From: Clavelina lepadiformis | Lineage: Eukaryota > Chordata > Ascidiacea > Aplousobranchia > Clavelinidae | Assembly (NCBI RefSeq): GCF_947623445.1 | Contig: NC_135244.1 | Location: forward strand, 6,014,001 to 6,078,000 | Reading direction: 5' to 3' | Length of the DNA: 64,000 nucleotides | In this document: in pieces, positions 5,922 through 20,896 of the stretch | How the letters are laid out: each line of letters starts with the position of its first letter | How positions within the stretch are numbered: position 1 is the stretch's first letter | Notes under the pieces: generated by a model | What the model was told of the DNA's origin: nothing | What the model saw: only the letters and a program-made list of their open reading frames with translations | The model's database searches: none | Made by a program: the position numbers and the translations under genes

Positions 5922-8900
5922 TCAGAATTCTTCTTCCTCACTTGGCTTACCCATCCACTTTCCACATCCAGCACTTTCAAATGCTTTCTTCATGACATTG
6001 CAAGTGTCCCGATAATCACTTGCATCTTGCTTCGCTTTTGCATAAGATTCATATTCTTCTTTGCATATCTGCAGTGGAGGATCAAATGTAGTTGCTATTT
6101 GATGATTGACACAGGCTAACTGAGATAGCAACGTAACAATTAATGCAAATCTGAGCCACTACACATCCACACAATTACATTGAATCGATTCTCATTGGTG
6201 ATAACATGGTCTTTTCAAGATACCAGTTGTTTTTAATCTAATTTTGAGATAAACCTTATTACCCTATTGTTTTTGTTAATATAATTTTTCATTTGTTAAA
6301 ATTGATCTTTATGAAATAAAATTGATATTATGAAATTTGATACATATAGATGCAAACCTTTTTAAATTGAGAGTAGAAAGCTGATTTGCTGACTCGAGAA
6401 ACAGGGTTGACGCATCCATATCGAGGTTCACACCTTCCTTTGGTACCATCCAGTACCTCTGGTTGCTCATCATACAAACACCAGTTCATGCTAAACTCTC
6501 TCGTTTTGATTTTTCCAGTGTCTCTCCCCGGATCTTCACCACTAACTTTAGCAACCTATTGCCAGATGAAAAAAACAAAATATTTTCTTACGTACATAAT
6601 GCAGCTGTTTGTCAAATATTTCAATATATTGTTCACTGTATGTCATTGTTTCTTAATTAGTTGTGTTCTGCACAGCTGGCATGGCATGTAACCCACCTCT
6701 GGATGATGAACTCTATACAATGAAGTTTCCTGGTTGAAGTCATAATTTTGCAAGTACGAATCCAAACGACAGCATATAGCTCTGGTCAGGTGGCCATGAT
6801 GATAAAGCATTCCAAGTGTGAGCGAGGACATGTATATCGGTTCAATAAAGTGACTCAACAGAGCACCCTAAATGAAACCATTGTTTAAAAGACCACATTC
6901 ACAAAAATAAGAAAAGACCAGCTACTAAAATGCACAAATGATAACTTTACTTTGTATGTATAATATGTTGAAATGTAAAGACAGTGAAATTGTTTAAAAT
7001 AACGAAAAACAGGTATTAAGTGGCATGATGTGTACATAAATTAATACATTTCATCAAAAAATAATTCAGTTCTACTTGGTAGCTTTTAATAAACGAGCAA
7101 TGCACATAAGCCACAAAACTATTGCACTCTAGTATCATGATAAATGCTTTGTTGAATGCAGTGGGCAATATTTTCAACAAGAAGAGAATATATAACCTGG
7201 AGGCCCAAAAAATTCCACTTTGCTATTTTGTCACTGCATGACATTGTACGTAGTCTCTCCCCCCGAAGGATTCCATCCCAGGTGGGTACATTTGCGTCAT
7301 CCTCGATTGGAATGCAACCTTCACCTATAAAGTGTATAAAGATTATACATTATAAGCAGTTAGCTCTTTTAAACTTTTTATTCTTCTTCGGCTTTCTATA
7401 AACTCAACATTAACGCTGCATCTTGGTGAGTTACAAATTGAAAACTCAATTTATATTCACTGCCGCTTCAAATAAATTCAACACTGACCATTTTCAACTT
7501 TTGTCCTCAGAATTCCTTGCTTTTTATTATCAAACAATGGCTGATGCTCTCCATGATTGAGACCCTGTGGTTCAGCTGGCCGGAGGTCGCTTTTAGTGAA
7601 AAGTGCACTGTCTCCGCACGGTGCAGTGCTTATATAGAGGTGAAACTCGACACCAGACTTTAACTGAAGCCTGAAACAAGAAAGCGAACACTGATAAATA
7701 TGCATGAGTTAACAAATTGCTTTACACTTTTACAAAGCTTGTAGTGTTGATATGCTATAAACTTAACTATTTGCTCAGCTCTACTTTTAGAAGTAAAAAT
7801 TGTGGATTACTTAACTAATCCCACAAAATTTTCTGAAAAAAGTGCACGTAAACATACAACTAAAGCTAATTCTGAGTTTATCATTGGAAATTTCATCAAT
7901 TTAAAGTGTTTTGTCAGCAACAGGGTGTGAGCAGCATCTATTATCTCAAAATTATTCATAAATATCACTTATCAAGTAATGGCTAAGTGTTAAATTTATT
8001 ATCTTCAACATAGAACATTTCATTCAGCTGCAGTTTAAGTTAAAGCAAATTTCATGAAACATAATGTTTTCAAAACGTCAATTGTTGCCTTGTTACCTAT
8101 TTTGTGAGTAACTGTAAGAAAGAATTTATCATGAAACTGAATGAGATTGACATTTGTAAGAAATTGCAACAAAAATTGTCACATATTTAAGACTTTGATG
8201 TTTAATTGAAAAAAATAGTGTTAGCGCAATACAAAAGCCGAAATGTAAACTCCAAATAAGCATTTGTTATAACTCAGTCTTATTTTCACACAAATATGGT
8301 GCCTACTTTATCAACTTCAAATTACTTAAAGTAATATTTTCCTTCACATTAACCAGGTTGCTCTGTATTCGGAAAAGCATCTAACATTTCAACGTTAAAA
8401 AAGCGTTAATTGTAACAAGGTTTCAACTCTTTTAATGATTAGATATCATAGTCATATTCACATACCGATTTCTTGTTCCACGCTCTAGTATCAGTTCCTC
8501 ATTTTGAGGATTAGTTTTGTATTCCATGAGATGTCTAAAAGAAGCATTGACATATTAATCACCAGATACTTGCCATTTAGCATTGTAATATTTAAAACCT
8601 AAACTTTATTACTATTATGACAAGCTGGTAATTTGCATATAACACTATACTTGTATAAGAATCGAACGAGGCCCCTTCTAGCAATAACTTCAGCATGACT
8701 GTCATTCACAGTGTCTCCTTGCATACTCAGCATATCCCCAGCAACACATCTGTTTCCTGTAATGCCATACAGAATGACAATTCACGACCAACTGGCAATT
8801 ATTGATAATGAATTTTATGAATCTTTTATGATCCCTCACATATTTGTCAATGGGCAGTCATAATTTTGTTTTTATCGACTTTGCTGATATTTACTTATTT

Positions 8901-11900
8901 TACTTTCTATTTAAATGCATTTACTTGCCTGAACCAATGCTAACTACAGACCACTGTCTTTCTTCCCCAGCTTCTGTATGAACACTCCGTTCCATTACAA
9001 AACCTGCGAGAATTTTTCGACCCACAATAACATCAGGTAAATCACTGCAGAGTTCTTGAAACTTTTGGTTAACGAGAATAGCCACTCTATCATGGTATGT
9101 CTTCACCTGCGAGTGGTGGTAATTCGCCTAGAGATGAAAAATGTATATAAAGAAACCTTCATTTTAGTTTGTCTAAATGAGTAAAAACCGTTTTGAAAAA
9201 GATATCGTGTGTTTTTAAAACGACATTGTTTTAAAAAAGGTTGTTTTCAGTTTCAGTTCTTACATACATCCATAACAACTATCACTAACAACTTCATCAC
9301 CAAAACTCAACACACAAAAAACCATACATAAATTACCTCTGCAGTATCTGCTGATGGAATCGATATCTTCAACGTATTAAGGGCAGATTCTGCTGCCTTT
9401 AATTTTGAGTCTTTCTTTGAAGATGCAACCACAGAGGGAAAGGTTTGAGTACCGATGACAAGAGTGGTTCCAAAGCTGAAACAAAAAGAAGGTAGTGAGG
9501 TTATGTTCGAAGCACAGCTTGCAAACAATTCTCTGAGTGCTTTTGTATCAATTTTGTCAACATCTTTAGTTACACTGATTTTTCTTGGATAGACAAACAT
9601 GGAAAATTAATAGCATTGTCTGTTCCTCAAGTGTGTGATGCTTTGGACTTCTAACTAAACTAACTTCATGGAGACAGTTGAACTACTAATTGCATCACTT
9701 TTACAAACCTATTTGGGATACCTGCGTTTGTGATCTGGTCCAAAAGTGTCACAAAAAAATTCAATTTTAAAGTTATTTGCTTGAGCATATTCATGTATGA
9801 GTGAAATTGCATTCTTGGTAGAACCCCCAGAAAACGTTGGCAGCACCATTTTATTTCCAATTTTCGTCTGATGAAAACAAATAAAAATGCCAGTTTGATG
9901 AATGCTCTTACACTTCTAAATTCAAACATCTCTTAGAAGAAACACTGTTCATATACAGTAATTTGTAATACACTTTCATACGATGAAGTAAATTCATTTT
10001 TACAAAAACATTAACATGTCTTCAGCAGCCATTTAACTGAGCAAAAACTTGGAATGCTAACCTCACGTTGAATAGCTTCATAATTCCTACCCATTCGACC
10101 TGACTGCATTAAAATTTGCAAAGCAGCTTCAGAAGCTTTTGTTTTAGCGTCTTTCTTTGAGGAACCTTCAACTGAAGGAAGTGTCTTTCTATCCAGTATA
10201 ATGACAACTGAAAACCTAACAAGATAATGATTTATAACTGATAAAGCTGAAAATTAACACTTAAAGAGTTGAAAGAAATTTGAATAAGCCATTTAACTTT
10301 TTTGGCCAACCTTTTCTTATGGTCTGGGCCACTCTCAAAGTATTTAAACTCAATAGGCAGTCGATTTGCTTGTGCATATTCATTAAGAGCAGAAACTGGA
10401 TTTTTGGATGAGGAGATACTCCCTGTAGGAGCATCGGAAACTGCTGGAAAAATATCTTAATACCTATGTTTCCAACAAACTGTACAAATTATGTCAAAAA
10501 ATATTACATTTACAAAAAAAGATGTTTTTCAGTGTAAGTAATAATTCAATAAAAAAACATAAGCAGATATACAAAAAGGTGTTTTCAATGTACTGAAATA
10601 CTTTATTTTGATTGTGCCATGTTCTCAAATATAAGACTATTTTTATTTGTGGAACCGAACTTACCATATGAACTTTCACTTGCATCACAAGGAAAACTTT
10701 CAGCAGCTTCATTGTTAAAATAAGTTGTTGTAGAGGTCTGTGCTAAGGCATCTAAACATTTACCTAATTGTTACCAAAATCAATTAACACAATCTCAAAA
10801 TACAGTTACGGTCATACAAACTTCTACAGTTTGTGTTACACTTTTACTTTCACTTTTTACTTTCACTTTTACTTCTACACTTTTACTTACCACTGGAAAA
10901 CTCATTTGCTAATTGGTTTGAAACTCTCCCAGATTCAGGTTTCACAAACAGCTCTTTTAGAGCAGGCATCAAAGTTTCAGGCTGTGGCCATAAACTCGCA
11001 CTCACACCTTGTTTATCGCTTGAAATGTCCATGTTTTCCATTCGGTCTAAGTACAGTTTTGAAAGTTGAGATGAACTTTCTTGATTCTTGGGTGACTCTA
11101 TGACATTTTCGTTGGGAATTTCTGAGCCTGGTTCCAAACCACAGTTTCTATCGTATGGGAAAACGCCAGTGGCTTCTTCAAATGTGTGGATTGGAATATG
11201 TTCAATTTTAACCACCTTGGGCAATAAATCACCACTCCCCTCAACCTCAACTACCTCTCTTGATTTGTGTTCTAAAAAGAAGTAAAATAAAACAGGTTAC
11301 TGAAGGCTACTGCAATATCTACTGGCAATTTTAGTTTATCAGCTGCATGAGTTGCAAACCAAGTTGCTTTAAGTTTATTAAATGTAATGTATCAGGAAGA
11401 TTTTGCGTGTTGTGATCAAGGTCCACCATTGTATGGGTTTCATTCTTACCTTTATATTCGATAAAATACTACGATAACAGATATATATACAGTACATACC
11501 AGACAAATTCTTCGTGATCACTGGATAAAACACTCACCAGTACAAGCTTTTTGCAAGTTCTTTCTTTCATTTCTGCATTCAATTATGGCTCGCTCCATAG
11601 CTGCTTCTGCAATTTGTGCAGAAAGCGTAGGAATGCTGTGAAATTCTGGGGCATCTACGTTACTGGAATACTCACTTAATGCTGATGGTTCTTGCTTAAA
11701 AGAGAAATCTGCTGGTTTCAGCAATCGCTCATTGGATAATGCAAACTCAACAGTGCCAAGTGATACTCCCTGATAATTCGGCTGGCAACCTTCACCAACG
11801 TTTGTGGTAGGTTGACAAGTGTTTTTTGCAACAGAATTATAGGTATATGGAGGCGTTTGTGGTCTCTGCAGTATTGTTATATTTCTTGGGGGTAAAAAAA

Positions 11901-13667
11901 CTGGTGGGTTTTGGTGTGATGCAGAAGGTCCTACATTTTGCACATAAGTTCTTTGATTACTTTGTTGTGCTGCCGTTTTATTCTGCATAATACTTCTCCC
12001 TTTTTCAAGGATTGACCATCGCGGGGGATCTTCCTTACACCTTACCACCAATCCATTGTTCATCATGCCATATAAAACCTATCAAAATCATGGAACGTCT
12101 AATGTGATTAAAAAGTGAACAAACCTGGGGCTTTAACACCCAAAATAACTAATGCAAGAGATTAACCAAACATTGTGAAAGTGAAAAGAGCAACATAACT
12201 TACATGATTAATTTGCTTTTTTGCGTAAGAAATCGTAATGTTTTTCTGGATCTGACCGAACAACATTTCACCAGGATGTGCATCAAACAAAATTTTAAGA
12301 AGATTATCTTCCAGGGCACTTTCTATTTCATGTAAAAATGATTGCATAAAATAAATATAATAAAGCTAAATTGTAATAAAGCTAACAAAAGCCAATACCC
12401 ATATATTGTACTTTCTAATAAACTTTGACAATAAAAGCAAGGATATATATATGTTACTTTTGAGTTGAAATATATTAAAAAAGATGAAGTTAAGTTCAAT
12501 CATAGTTCTGACAGAGATTAAATACTGTAAATCATACTGGTCTTATTCAACACATCAAAGTAATGCCACACAAAGAGCATAAAAATACCGTGCTGCAGTG
12601 TTGGTCGACCAGGTCCCATGCCTCTTGATGAACGTGCATGCTGATGGCTTCTAGGTCTGGACATACCCCAAGCAACAGGTCGACCAGATGTTTGATAAAC
12701 ACGTCCTCGACGATTCATCCTTAACATAAATAAAGGTCCCTACCTTAATCTTCATTCCAGAATAATCCAAACTCCCTACTAAGAACCCTTACTAAAACAT
12801 TTTGACAAATTGTTGACATTCATTCAATGCTAATAACCAAACTAACCCATAGTTTCAAAATTATAGAAAAACTTGGGAACTATAGATGGGCCAGTATCAA
12901 TTTTAAACCGACTATCTCTTTTGTGGTTGCATTATTCTGGTGTAGGCATAGAACGGGGTTCCTACACATAACGTATGTCCACATAAATTTTGGAACTAAC
13001 CCATCCTGCATGTACTACATGCAAGCTACAATAGCAAAGGGTAATCAACAAAATGTATCTAAATACATAATGTAATATATATACATACGCCATGATTGTT
13101 AAAAGCAGTTAATTTCAAGTAATATCATTTATCTAGACATAAAGAATTTTTTGCAAATTTACTCTCACCTGTTTAATGCATATAATACATTATAATTTTT
13201 GCCAGTTTTGAGCTTGTGTAGTATTTCATTAACTGTAAGAGGTCGTTTTTCACTAAAAAACAAATGACATGCCAACATATTTTTAAACCTTGCACAAAAT
13301 AAGTATGAACATAGGGGCATTTCTTAATTCAATATTGTACATGTAAACTTTAAAAAACATTAAATTACAGTTTAACAACAATACAGTAACAAAATTTACA
13401 GTGTAACAAATCCAGTAAGCTTAACAAGGAGTGAAAACAAACAATTGCAATTTCTAAACACTGAAATAATTTTGCACTTAAATTAGCCGATATACGATGA
13501 TACAATGAACTAAAATCACATAAGTATGCATATTGATAAAAACATGGTCTGTTTCATGACTGTAACACATCCTCAGACAACAGCAGTGCAATAAAAGATA
13601 GCATAGCTTAGATATCTCACCAGGATAAAAGTGTTTCTAGTCTACTTTCCCAGTCTTCTGAATCCAT
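5922..13667 (-). CDS. ADAR: ADAR1-type double-stranded-RNA adenosine deaminase with two Z-type domains
   Basis: Nineteen coding exons join with consistent phases into 1,070 residues (high to low): 13667-13621, 13252-13169, 12719-12589, 12322-12204, 12078-11538, 11271-10891, 10751-10665, 10443-10311, 10215-10062, 9867-9722, 9475-9337, 9127-8929, 8756-8651, 8534-8466, 7670-7489, 7324-7197, 6867-6697, 6555-6358, 6119-5922. The product deaminates A to I in dsRNA. Visible parts: a Z-like winged helix (residues 6-63); a Zalpha domain (about 88-151) with K122, N126, Y130, P145-P146 and W148 at the Z-DNA/RNA contact positions; a low-complexity linker; two dsRBDs (about 477-547 and 576-645), each with an SSKKD-K-KA helix; and the deaminase from about 655. 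The zinc ligands are H741 (HAE), C797 (PCGD) and C869 (SCSDK); the proton-shuttle Glu is E743; the base-flipping Glu is E841 in KVENGEG, an ADAR1-class signature. One intron is GC-AG. An in-frame upstream exon could extend the N-terminus. Confidence 0.9.
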
Positions 13668-17317: not shown

Positions 17318-18130
17318 TTAAGCTCTTTCATACATTCTTTTGCATGTGACATCTTGATAGGTAAATTCCTGTATATCAACATATAGGCTATAAAACTTGT
17401 CACAACAGTAAAGTATTAGGTTTTAAGACTTTACTTGTTTCTTACAAAGATAAGCCAAATAGGCTGAGGTTAAGTCAAACAAGACTTTTCGACTGTTGAT
17501 TTTGGTCGAGCAAGCAATGCATACATCACGAAGAGTTTTTAAATGATAAACAATTTTGATATAACTTACCATAATTAAATGGCCTTCATTGTCAACGAAT
17601 CTTTCAATGGTTGTTTGTTTGGTGTCGTTGTCCCATTTTTGTGTATGAATTATTTTATTGCCATCCATGACTATAAGAGACTAAACGTCTTACATGTTAG
17701 TTTTTCTTAATTTTTACGCGGAACCATGTCATATAGCGTACTTGAATATCTTGCACACCTTGCATTTATTTCCATCCGGGATATCCTCTTGGAATTCTTC
17801 GCCTAATTTGCACTTTGTTTCAATTTTTCTTAAGCTGCTGACGCTTTGGTACAGAAAGTCATTGTGGTTGATATTGATCACTACTTTGGGTTTGGCTAGT
17901 GATATCATCTTCCGAACAAATGCGTTGACTCCTACGTACAACATCAAGATTAATAAGATTAAGTATAATACGTCGGTTTTTAATGTAATTAATCAAAAAT
18001 AACTTAGACTAAATGACTATTTTAGCAAATTACATATAAATGTTCGTTCGTTCATACCTAAAGCTTTCATGTAAGCATCAAAATTTTCTGACGATATCAT
18101 CTTCCAAGTTCCGTTCATTGCTTGCGTCAT
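17318..18130 (-). CDS. Fatty-acid-binding protein (FABP) gene A
   Basis: Four exons with the classic FABP layout: 18130-18058 (73 nt), 17931-17759 (173 nt), 17680-17570 (111 nt) and 17368-17318 (51 nt), 135 residues in all. The 73 and 173 nt sizes and phases match vertebrate FABP genes. The protein opens MTQAMNGTWKMISSENFDAY, has the family start signature GTWK, and ends DVTCKRMYERA, keeping the Arg-x-Tyr pair that binds the fatty-acid carboxylate. FABPs are small cytosolic beta-barrel carriers of fatty acids and other hydrophobic ligands. It is the most 3' of four same-strand paralogues and seems intact. Confidence 0.85.
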
Positions 18131-18666
18131 TTTGCAATACTCGCGTGGAATCCTTGCAAAATCTGTAGGTCTACGTTGTCTCTTTTGATAATGCTACGAT
18201 TTACTGCTTTAGCAAATAACTGAGTGAATACATAAAGAAAATGAATGTACAGTATATGCTTTGACTTTAACTCAATCGTACACTTACATAAGATTTGTTT
18301 GCCGAAGCTAATGTGCAAGGCACGGCAATATACAAGTAAATGATTGCTGAAGGCGCTGCAGAAATTGTGCAGCTGCACCCGATGTGCTGTGAAATTCAAA
18401 TGTTTTGGTGAATCAGGGGCGATGTAGGATATATCCTACATACACTCCTATACTATTCTAAATGTTGCTTTTTTATTAATCATAGCCAGCAACGACAGAT
18501 CCTGTTGGCATAAACCTCAACATAATGATTTATTTACATGTAAACAAGAGACGTGAAACGATGAAAAGTTGATGTAAAATCACTTTTACGAAAGAAACGC
18601 ATACGCTATCGACTGTTGTGAGTTAATCAAAAGAGCCAGCTTTTTTGCAGATCTATGTTCAAATCT
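18131..18666. other. Spacer between FABP genes A and B
   Basis: About 540 bp holding the promoter side of gene A and the 3' flank of gene B. Minus-strand open frames here have no family resemblance. No repeat was recognised. Confidence 0.4.
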
Positions 18667-20297
18667 TCATACAGCGCTGCCAGGGTTGTCTTCGATTGCA
18701 ATCTTATCACGAAGTCGTTTAAAAGTCCTTCGGCAGACAATGTCTTCATATTTGATAACCTATATACACCCACGTTTTAGCATTATAGGGTCGCGCGCTA
18801 TTTTTATTTAAATTTTTTAGCTAAACTACTATAGTATCTGCGGATATGACATTTTTTTGTGATATATATGACGATACAGGCAATACTAAAATAACGTCTT
18901 TATAGAGTTTATGTTCTGTATACGGTATTTTCATATACCCAATCGTAGTAAGGCTAATTTCCGTAAAAGCAAAAATTCCTGTGTTTACTTACTGCCACCA
19001 TTTCATCATTATCGTTGATAATAGCTGTGGTGTAGGTTTGTTTGCCTTTCCACTTTTGAATTTGGATAAGCATACCGTCTTCATATTTTATAATAGACTA
19101 AATTGAACATGTTAAAAAAGGTTAAGTTGCTGTTTGCATGCATGTAAATTTACAATTACAGTAACTTAATTTTGATATGTATTTATTAGTGAAACTGTAT
19201 ACTGATTGGTTAGATGAGAACTTTACAACACAATGGACCTTAGTTCTTCTACCATCTAGGCATTCCTCATCAAACCAGATTCCCATTCTGCAACAGGTTT
19301 TGAAGTTGCGCACACGTGTGATGCTTTTGCATGTGTAAAAACCGTTGTCTTGGATAGATAGTTTTACTTTGAAATCCATCAGATTAGCTATTTTTCGCAG
19401 CCAGGCATTCGTACCTGCCACCACATCATGATTTGTTAACATCACTTATTAGATAATGCATATTTTTCGTCGGCAGCCTGTGCATTACCCACTTTCTTTA
19501 CTGTTCATGCACAACATAATGTTATGAAATAACTATCATTTAGAGCAGTGGTTCTCAACCGGGGGTCCGCGGACCCCCAAGGGTCCGCGAAACGTTTTCA
19601 GGGGGTCCGTGAGAACTTCGAAATTTGCAACATAAAGTACGAGTTTTTAAAAAGTTTTTGCTGTTTATCGTTGCTGTTTGAAATAGGCTTGAACATTTGC
19701 TTAATTGTCTATTGTGATGGGACAATACAAAAGCTTATTGAGATTTATCACCCGCAGGGAAGGCCTATTGTGATGCAATAGATTGCGGATTATACGAGAA
19801 GACAGCTGGATACAGTGATTTTAAGTTGCTGGAGATTGCACATAATCGCTTTCTCAGTTTCTGCTCTCGTTCGTATAAAATCGAAGGCACGTAACCAACT
19901 AAATGTTGAAGACGACTTGCGACTATCGATTTCGAAAACACAACCCCGTATTTCAAGACTTGTTTCTAATATGCAACAGCAAAACTCCCATTAAGTGTAT
20001 TCGCTTTGAAATAAATAAAAATATCCGCATAGTTTGATGTTATTTTGATTGAATAGCGCAGTTGTGCACCAAGACTATTAAGTAAAACTAAGCAAAGAAA
20101 CATTTAAGTGCAGTCTCAGAACTCTTAGTTTGCTTAAACTTCAGGGGTCCGCCAACTGCTTTGACAGCACCAAAAGGGGTCCGCCAAGATCAGAAGGTTG
20201 AGAACCACTGATTTAGAGTCTTACCTAGGCGTGCCATAAGCTCATCAGCATTTTCATTTGACTTCAACTTCCAAAGACCGTTAAACTTGCCGGTCAT
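18667..20297 (-). CDS. Divergent FABP gene B with altered ligand motif and longer tail
   Basis: Exons 20297-20225 (73 nt), 19414-19239 (176 nt), 19097-18993 (105 nt) and 18759-18667 (93 nt) give 148 residues. It starts MTGKFNGLWKLKSNENADEL, so GTWK has become GLWK. The last exon reads DIVCRRTFKRLRDK and then continues about 13 residues past the usual FABP end. The C-terminal Arg-x-Tyr becomes Arg-x-Phe, and exon 2 is three nucleotides longer than its neighbours. All phases hold, so it is probably a working but specialised family member. Its first intron carries a hAT MITE (19546-20210). I infer a changed ligand; the family assignment itself is firm. Confidence 0.78.
19546..20210. mobile_element. 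665-bp hAT MITE in intron 1 of FABP gene B
   Basis: Perfect 15-bp terminal inverted repeats (CAGTGGTTCTCAACC) are flanked by a perfect 8-bp target duplication, ATTTAGAG (19538-19545 and 20211-20218). The subterminal parts are GC-rich GGGGTCCGC repeats. No intact transposase is visible. The perfect duplication suggests a fairly young insertion. Confidence 0.88.
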
Positions 20298-20896
20298 TAT
20301 AACCTGGCCTCGGTGCAACTCAAGCAAGATACGTAAAAAACCTTGCGTGATTACTCGAATGCTATATGAAATTAACTGCAGCAGTGGTTGCTAGTAATAA
20401 GTGAAGCTGAATAGAACAACCAGTTCATGATACTCTACTACAGAAAAAGATTTATGTTGATGCTAAATGCTACATGGTTTCCGAAATAGGCAAATATTTT
20501 TGCACGTTTTCGAAACGATTCGGGACGTTATTTAAAGATGGCAATTGTTTTTCTGCTACGTGGTTTTTTAATGTCATACGAACTATAACCACCCATTTGA
20601 GGTATTTTATTCTATTCATTGATACAAACTGCTTTTTTTGTCTTGTTGCAATTTGCATCCGTATGTTTTTAAGAGACATATAATACCTTTACAGCTCTAG
20701 CCTGTTTATTTTAGTAAAACCATGATCTGAAACTTACATGTATACTGTGTGAGTCATTTATTCAACAATTCATTTTCAAAATAAATTACGAAGACGCATC
20801 CGCTATATTTGAAGCGATTATGGAGCCTACAGAATTTCTCCAACAATAACAGAATGAACAATTCACGAAATCAACTTTGGTAAAACTTTAGAAAGT

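Follow-up and report, generated by a model that had tools for sequence, protein, structure and literature searches.

Background

In mammals the control of Z-RNA by ADAR1 on one side, and by ZBP1 with RIPK3 on the other, is central to antiviral cell death and to interferon disease. Here we describe an ADAR1 gene with two tandem Z domains, the second of which looks canonical and the first degenerate, in a 64,000 nucleotide stretch of the genome of the tunicate Clavelina lepadiformis (contig NC_135244.1, positions 6,014,001 to 6,078,000, hereafter the window), and a predicted kinase gene with two Z domains on another contig (C3) of the same 209 Mb genome. ADAR1-like genes were defined by their Z domains by Grice and Degnan 2015, who give two such domains for vertebrates, three each for sea urchin and Amphimedon, two for Oscarella, and two for Nematostella with one of them divergent (PMC4323055), and a figure in Herbert 2024 labels ADARs with up to three (PMC11293857). 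The multi-Z architecture of ADAR1 is thus already known, and the view taken in the original prediction for this locus, that Z-domain ADARs are best known in vertebrates and patchily reported elsewhere, is overstated, as they are well documented outside vertebrates (PMC4323055). Planarian ADAR1 has no Z domain (PMC8797187). The ADARs of Ciona savignyi have been surveyed with domain prediction (PMC9989829), which counts against the novelty of this domain order in a tunicate.

Three eukaryotic Zalpha proteins have been counted, ADAR1, ZBP1 and PKZ (PMC10523160), and a further predicted one is anthozoan (PMC11298590). PKZ is described as a fish protein and ZBP1 as a tetrapod protein (PMC12119088, PMC11293857, PMC10523160), with the origin of ZBP1 placed in tetrapods and RIPK1 homologues reported as not found in tunicates (PMC12119088).

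The ADAR1 gene

The gene lies on the minus strand of the window, where 19 exons join in frame from 13667 to 5922 to give a product of 1070 residues (Table 1). All 18 junctions of this exon model, which was built from the sequence, are in phase, and GT-AG borders are seen in 17 introns. The remaining one, intron 12 in the deaminase region, is a GC-AG intron (donor GCAAGTAA at 8921-8928, minus strand) that is required by the frame. The five exons of the original prediction were confirmed in the sequence, with entry phases of 0, 2, 2, 1 and 0, and from exon 5 the reading frame runs through 14 further exons to complete the gene; the donor of exon 3 (GTATTT) looks weak.

The Pfam family A_deamin matches residues 717-1064 with 317.7 bits and there are two dsrm stretches. 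The deaminase retains DSHAEV at 739, APCGDS at 795, ENGEG at 838 and MSCSDK at 867. HAE, PCG and SC are the zinc and catalytic motifs of ADAR deaminases and the Glu of ENGEG is the base-flipping residue. Among solved structures the domain scores 365.3 bits with human ADAR1 and 257.2 bits with ADAR2. This closer relationship to ADAR1, together with the retention of the motifs, makes the gene an ADAR1, as had been proposed, and at least one Z domain, by which ADAR1 is recognised, is present. The genome also has an ADAR2-like and an ADAT1-like gene, each named by motif.

The two Z domains of ADAR1

The Pfam z-alpha profile (cut-off 21 bits) gives 41.7 bits on the whole protein and 38.5 bits on Z domain 2 alone (residues 88-151). 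K122, N126, Y130, P145, P146 and W148, the residues expected to contact Z-form nucleic acid, are each exactly where they had been predicted, and by its sequence Z domain 2 looks canonical and intact.

Z domain 1 (residues 6-63) is a weaker case. Alone it matches the profile over residues 28-63 with 14.3 bits, which is under the cut-off (E 0.043 over 24,736 families), and TrmB, another winged-helix family, was a close second with 12.0 bits. Shuffled sequences rarely or never did as well: the score was reached by none of 10,000 shuffles for three of four profiles and by 4 of 10,000 for the remaining profile, which was built from three tunicate domains only, and in an earlier run by none of the 3,789 and none of the 3,875 shuffles that were scored (5,000 made each time). 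Z domain 1 thus appears to be a genuine Z domain that has degenerated. The presence of two tandem Z domains is supported, as is an order with the canonical domain second and the degenerate one first, the reverse of that in human ADAR1.

How far Z domain 1 has degenerated depends on the alignment register. The wing residues P58 and W61 are kept in all HMMs (hidden Markov models) and alignments compared, and this part of the earlier description stands. Its other part, that Y40 of VLY is retained as the equivalent of Tyr177 with a Tyr at the N173 position, holds in one register, that used by the all5 HMM and found when Z domain 1 is aligned pairwise with human Zalpha or with mouse ZBP1. This register is doubtful, as four of the five distinct profile HMMs and both MAFFT alignments place L39 at the N173 position and N43 at the tyrosine position, four of seven pairwise alignments also put N43 there, and in all seven the second wing proline is replaced by Val59. 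Y40 is therefore probably not the Tyr177 equivalent, which would make Z domain 1 more degenerate than first described.

Comparison with known ADAR1 proteins and proposed role

Like vertebrate ADAR1 p150 (Zalpha, Zbeta, three double-stranded RNA-binding domains and deaminase), the tunicate protein has two N-terminal Z domains, one canonical and one degenerate, followed by double-stranded RNA-binding domains and an ADAR1-type deaminase. It differs in that the canonical domain is first in vertebrates and second here, and in that we find two double-stranded RNA-binding domains and not three. In human Zbeta the Asn is retained and the Tyr is replaced by Ile, whereas in our alignments the degenerate tunicate domain differs at the N173 position. 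The scores of the Z domains are too close for orthology to be assigned. The ADAR1s of sponges, Nematostella and sea urchin are also alike in having several Z domains, one being divergent in Nematostella, and the present gene differs from them in coming from a tunicate and having two double-stranded RNA-binding domains (PMC4323055). In the literature covered there is no mention of the canonical-second order in a tunicate ADAR1.

We consider it likely that this is a p150-like tunicate ADAR1 with a Z-docking second domain and a degenerate partner as its first. The gene would be the tunicate ADAR1 orthologue in its long form, and its product, if expressed and folded as predicted, would most likely be docked by Z domain 2 on Z-form RNA (or DNA), after which the two double-stranded RNA-binding domains and the deaminase would convert adenosine to inosine in the nearby duplex. 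Z domain 1, which keeps the winged-helix core pattern and the wing Trp and most probably no longer has the Asn/Tyr pair used for recognition, may play a part like that of vertebrate Zbeta, as a partner that is structural, promotes dimerisation or binds nucleic acid weakly. There is precedent for such a partner, as specific Z-DNA binding is lost when the Tyr is changed to Ile, the residue present in human Zbeta (PMC11293857), and is partly regained when this Ile335 is mutated to Tyr again (PMC11298590).

A predicted kinase gene with two Z domains

A whole-genome z-alpha search gave a weak match on C3, and reading of the nearby DNA led to a kinase gene of nine exons at C3:23162963-23166046. Its eight introns are all in phase with GT-AG borders, it ends in a stop of its own, and as modelled it puts kinase and Z domains in one protein of 560 residues. 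Pkinase matches residues 21-297 (5.9e-41) and two z-alpha domains follow after residue 390. Alone these score 33.5 and 26.7 bits, both over the cut-off, and they read KKKEVNHLLY...PPEW and RKTVNKALY...PPHW respectively. Both look canonical and intact. Among solved structures the first is closest to ADAR1 Z domains and the second to ZBP1. The Pfam family HTH_69 also matches both, the first over its cut-off and the second under it, and gave no match in the four vertebrate Z domains scanned. Intron positions are common to the Z domains of the kinase gene and Z domain 2 of ADAR1.

Among the best 60 of 827 solved matches the kinase is led, by small margins, by RIPK3 (83 bits), MARK3 (81), CTR1 (78) and IRAK4 (77), with RIPK2 also present and PKR absent. 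A related kinase of the same family has TYK2 as best match, with RIPK3, RIPK1 and RIPK2 lower. Since the lead of RIPK3 is slight and the related kinase has TYK2 first, we use RIPK-like as a working label.

Fish PKZ, whose kinase domain is of the eIF2alpha-kinase (PKR-like) type, likewise has two Zalpha domains and a protein kinase in one protein, but there the Z domains are N-terminal to the kinase, whereas here the kinase is first and the Z domains last, and among solved structures the kinase matches RIPK3 best. Tetrapod ZBP1 has two Zalpha domains and acts on RIPK3 through its RHIM; no RHIM tetrad ([VIL]Q[VIL]G) is present in the 560 residues of the tunicate product. No kinase with C-terminal Z domains was named in the titles and beginnings of abstracts searched, a search with most subscription papers outside its coverage.

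The kinase belongs to an expanded family. The search for relatives had 294 candidates at first look, of which 78 were scored, and the counts are thus lower bounds: at least 90 stretches in the genome match the gene, five being the gene itself and at least 85 others. At least 34 of the 85 lie on C4 at 21.6-24.4 Mb, and at least 31 span the kinase core with 45-55% identity. Of the remainder, many have about 30-44% identity and may represent kinases that are more distant, and some are second exons belonging to the same genes. Of the 85 matches listed, none extends beyond residue 328 of the C3 protein, that is, into the Z domains.

Six relatives were read downstream as stretches of sequence and not as full gene models. 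No Z domain was found downstream of any of them, the best score being 6.7 bits, where the same profile gives 40-78 on the C3 exons. Two macro domains (49 and 27.8 bits, cut-off 22) are present in one relative, another is followed by a TIR domain (57.7 bits), and three have a stretch that looks TPR-like, of which two were scanned, one giving TPR_8 at 22.8 bits (under cut-off) and the other no match; in the sixth no module was recognised by eye. A short linker after the kinase, chosen by eye, is common to the C3 gene and the six relatives, its K, L, F, P and F being invariant in all seven, and this supports the kinase-Z gene being one unit.

At C3:23155001-23160054, upstream of the kinase-Z gene on the same strand and downstream of another kinase, a TIR domain was found by scanning, followed by pieces that by eye read like a Rho/Rac GTPase; with the adjoining kinase this is possibly one kinase-TIR-GTPase gene.

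On balance we lean, though only slightly, to the view that the C3 gene, as one member of a large modular family with exchangeable C-terminal sensors, encodes a kinase-Zalpha-Zalpha protein in which Z-nucleic-acid sensing is coupled directly to a RIPK-type kinase, that its Z domains share an exon module with the active Z domain of ADAR1, and that tunicates run a pairing of ADAR1 against a Z-kinase with no RHIM adaptor. This would be a tunicate counterpart of the mammalian opposition of ADAR1 to ZBP1-RIPK3. Z-nucleic-acid sensing by kinases would then be older, or have arisen more often, than thought, and the division of Z-RNA between editor and sensor would become testable in a simple chordate. 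The N-terminal domain of a Ciona MLKL kills human cells (PMC11476962), so tunicates may possess an executioner on which a RIPK-like kinase could act.

Other features of the window and genome

Table 1. Exons of the ADAR1 gene, in window coordinates
Feature	Position	Strand	Content
Exon 1	13621..13667	minus	residues 1-15, with start Met (ATG) and helix 1 of Z domain 1; donor GTGAGA, phase 2 out
Exon 2	13169..13252	minus	middle of Z domain 1; acceptor TTTTTTAG, donor GTGAGA
Exon 3	12589..12719	minus	remainder of Z domain 1, including the wing RPVAW (P58, W61); inter-domain linker
Exon 4	12204..12322	minus	first half of Z domain 2, up to KKQINH; entered in phase 1, left in phase 0
Exon 5	11538..12078	minus	rest of Z domain 2 (VLY...PPRW; whole domain 38.5 bits with z-alpha), then linker
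Exons 6-7	10665..11271 (11271-10891, 10751-10665)	minus	linker
Exons 8-9	10062..10443 (10443-10311, 10215-10062)	minus	double-stranded RNA-binding domain 1, residues 479-543
Exons 10-11	9337..9867 (9867-9722, 9475-9337)	minus	double-stranded RNA-binding domain 2; position assigned by reading
Exons 12-19	5922..9127	minus	adenosine deaminase domain with HAE, PCG and SCS motifs and the ENGEG Glu; ends at stop TGA

The top z-alpha match of the genome search, at C9:2944445-2944624, has 20.4 bits (cut-off 21) and lies in a frame of 499 residues that looks F-box-like by eye. No COX1 was found in the assembly. Cellulose synthase paired with GH6 is a tunicate mark among animals, and at C9:12554801-12571400 a cellulose synthase frame (Cellulose_synt 1.8e-7) adjoins a GH6 frame (1.5e-7) near 12.556 Mb; GH6 matches there are in two copies, and the cellulose synthase was read beside the first. 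Within the window, exons on the minus strand at 17580-20330 read by eye like fatty-acid-binding proteins, probably from at least two tandem genes. At 19546-20210 there is an element with inverted ends CAGTGGTTCTCAACC and GGTTGAGAACCACTG and with ATTTAGAG flanking it on both sides, which by eye is like a non-autonomous hAT transposon.
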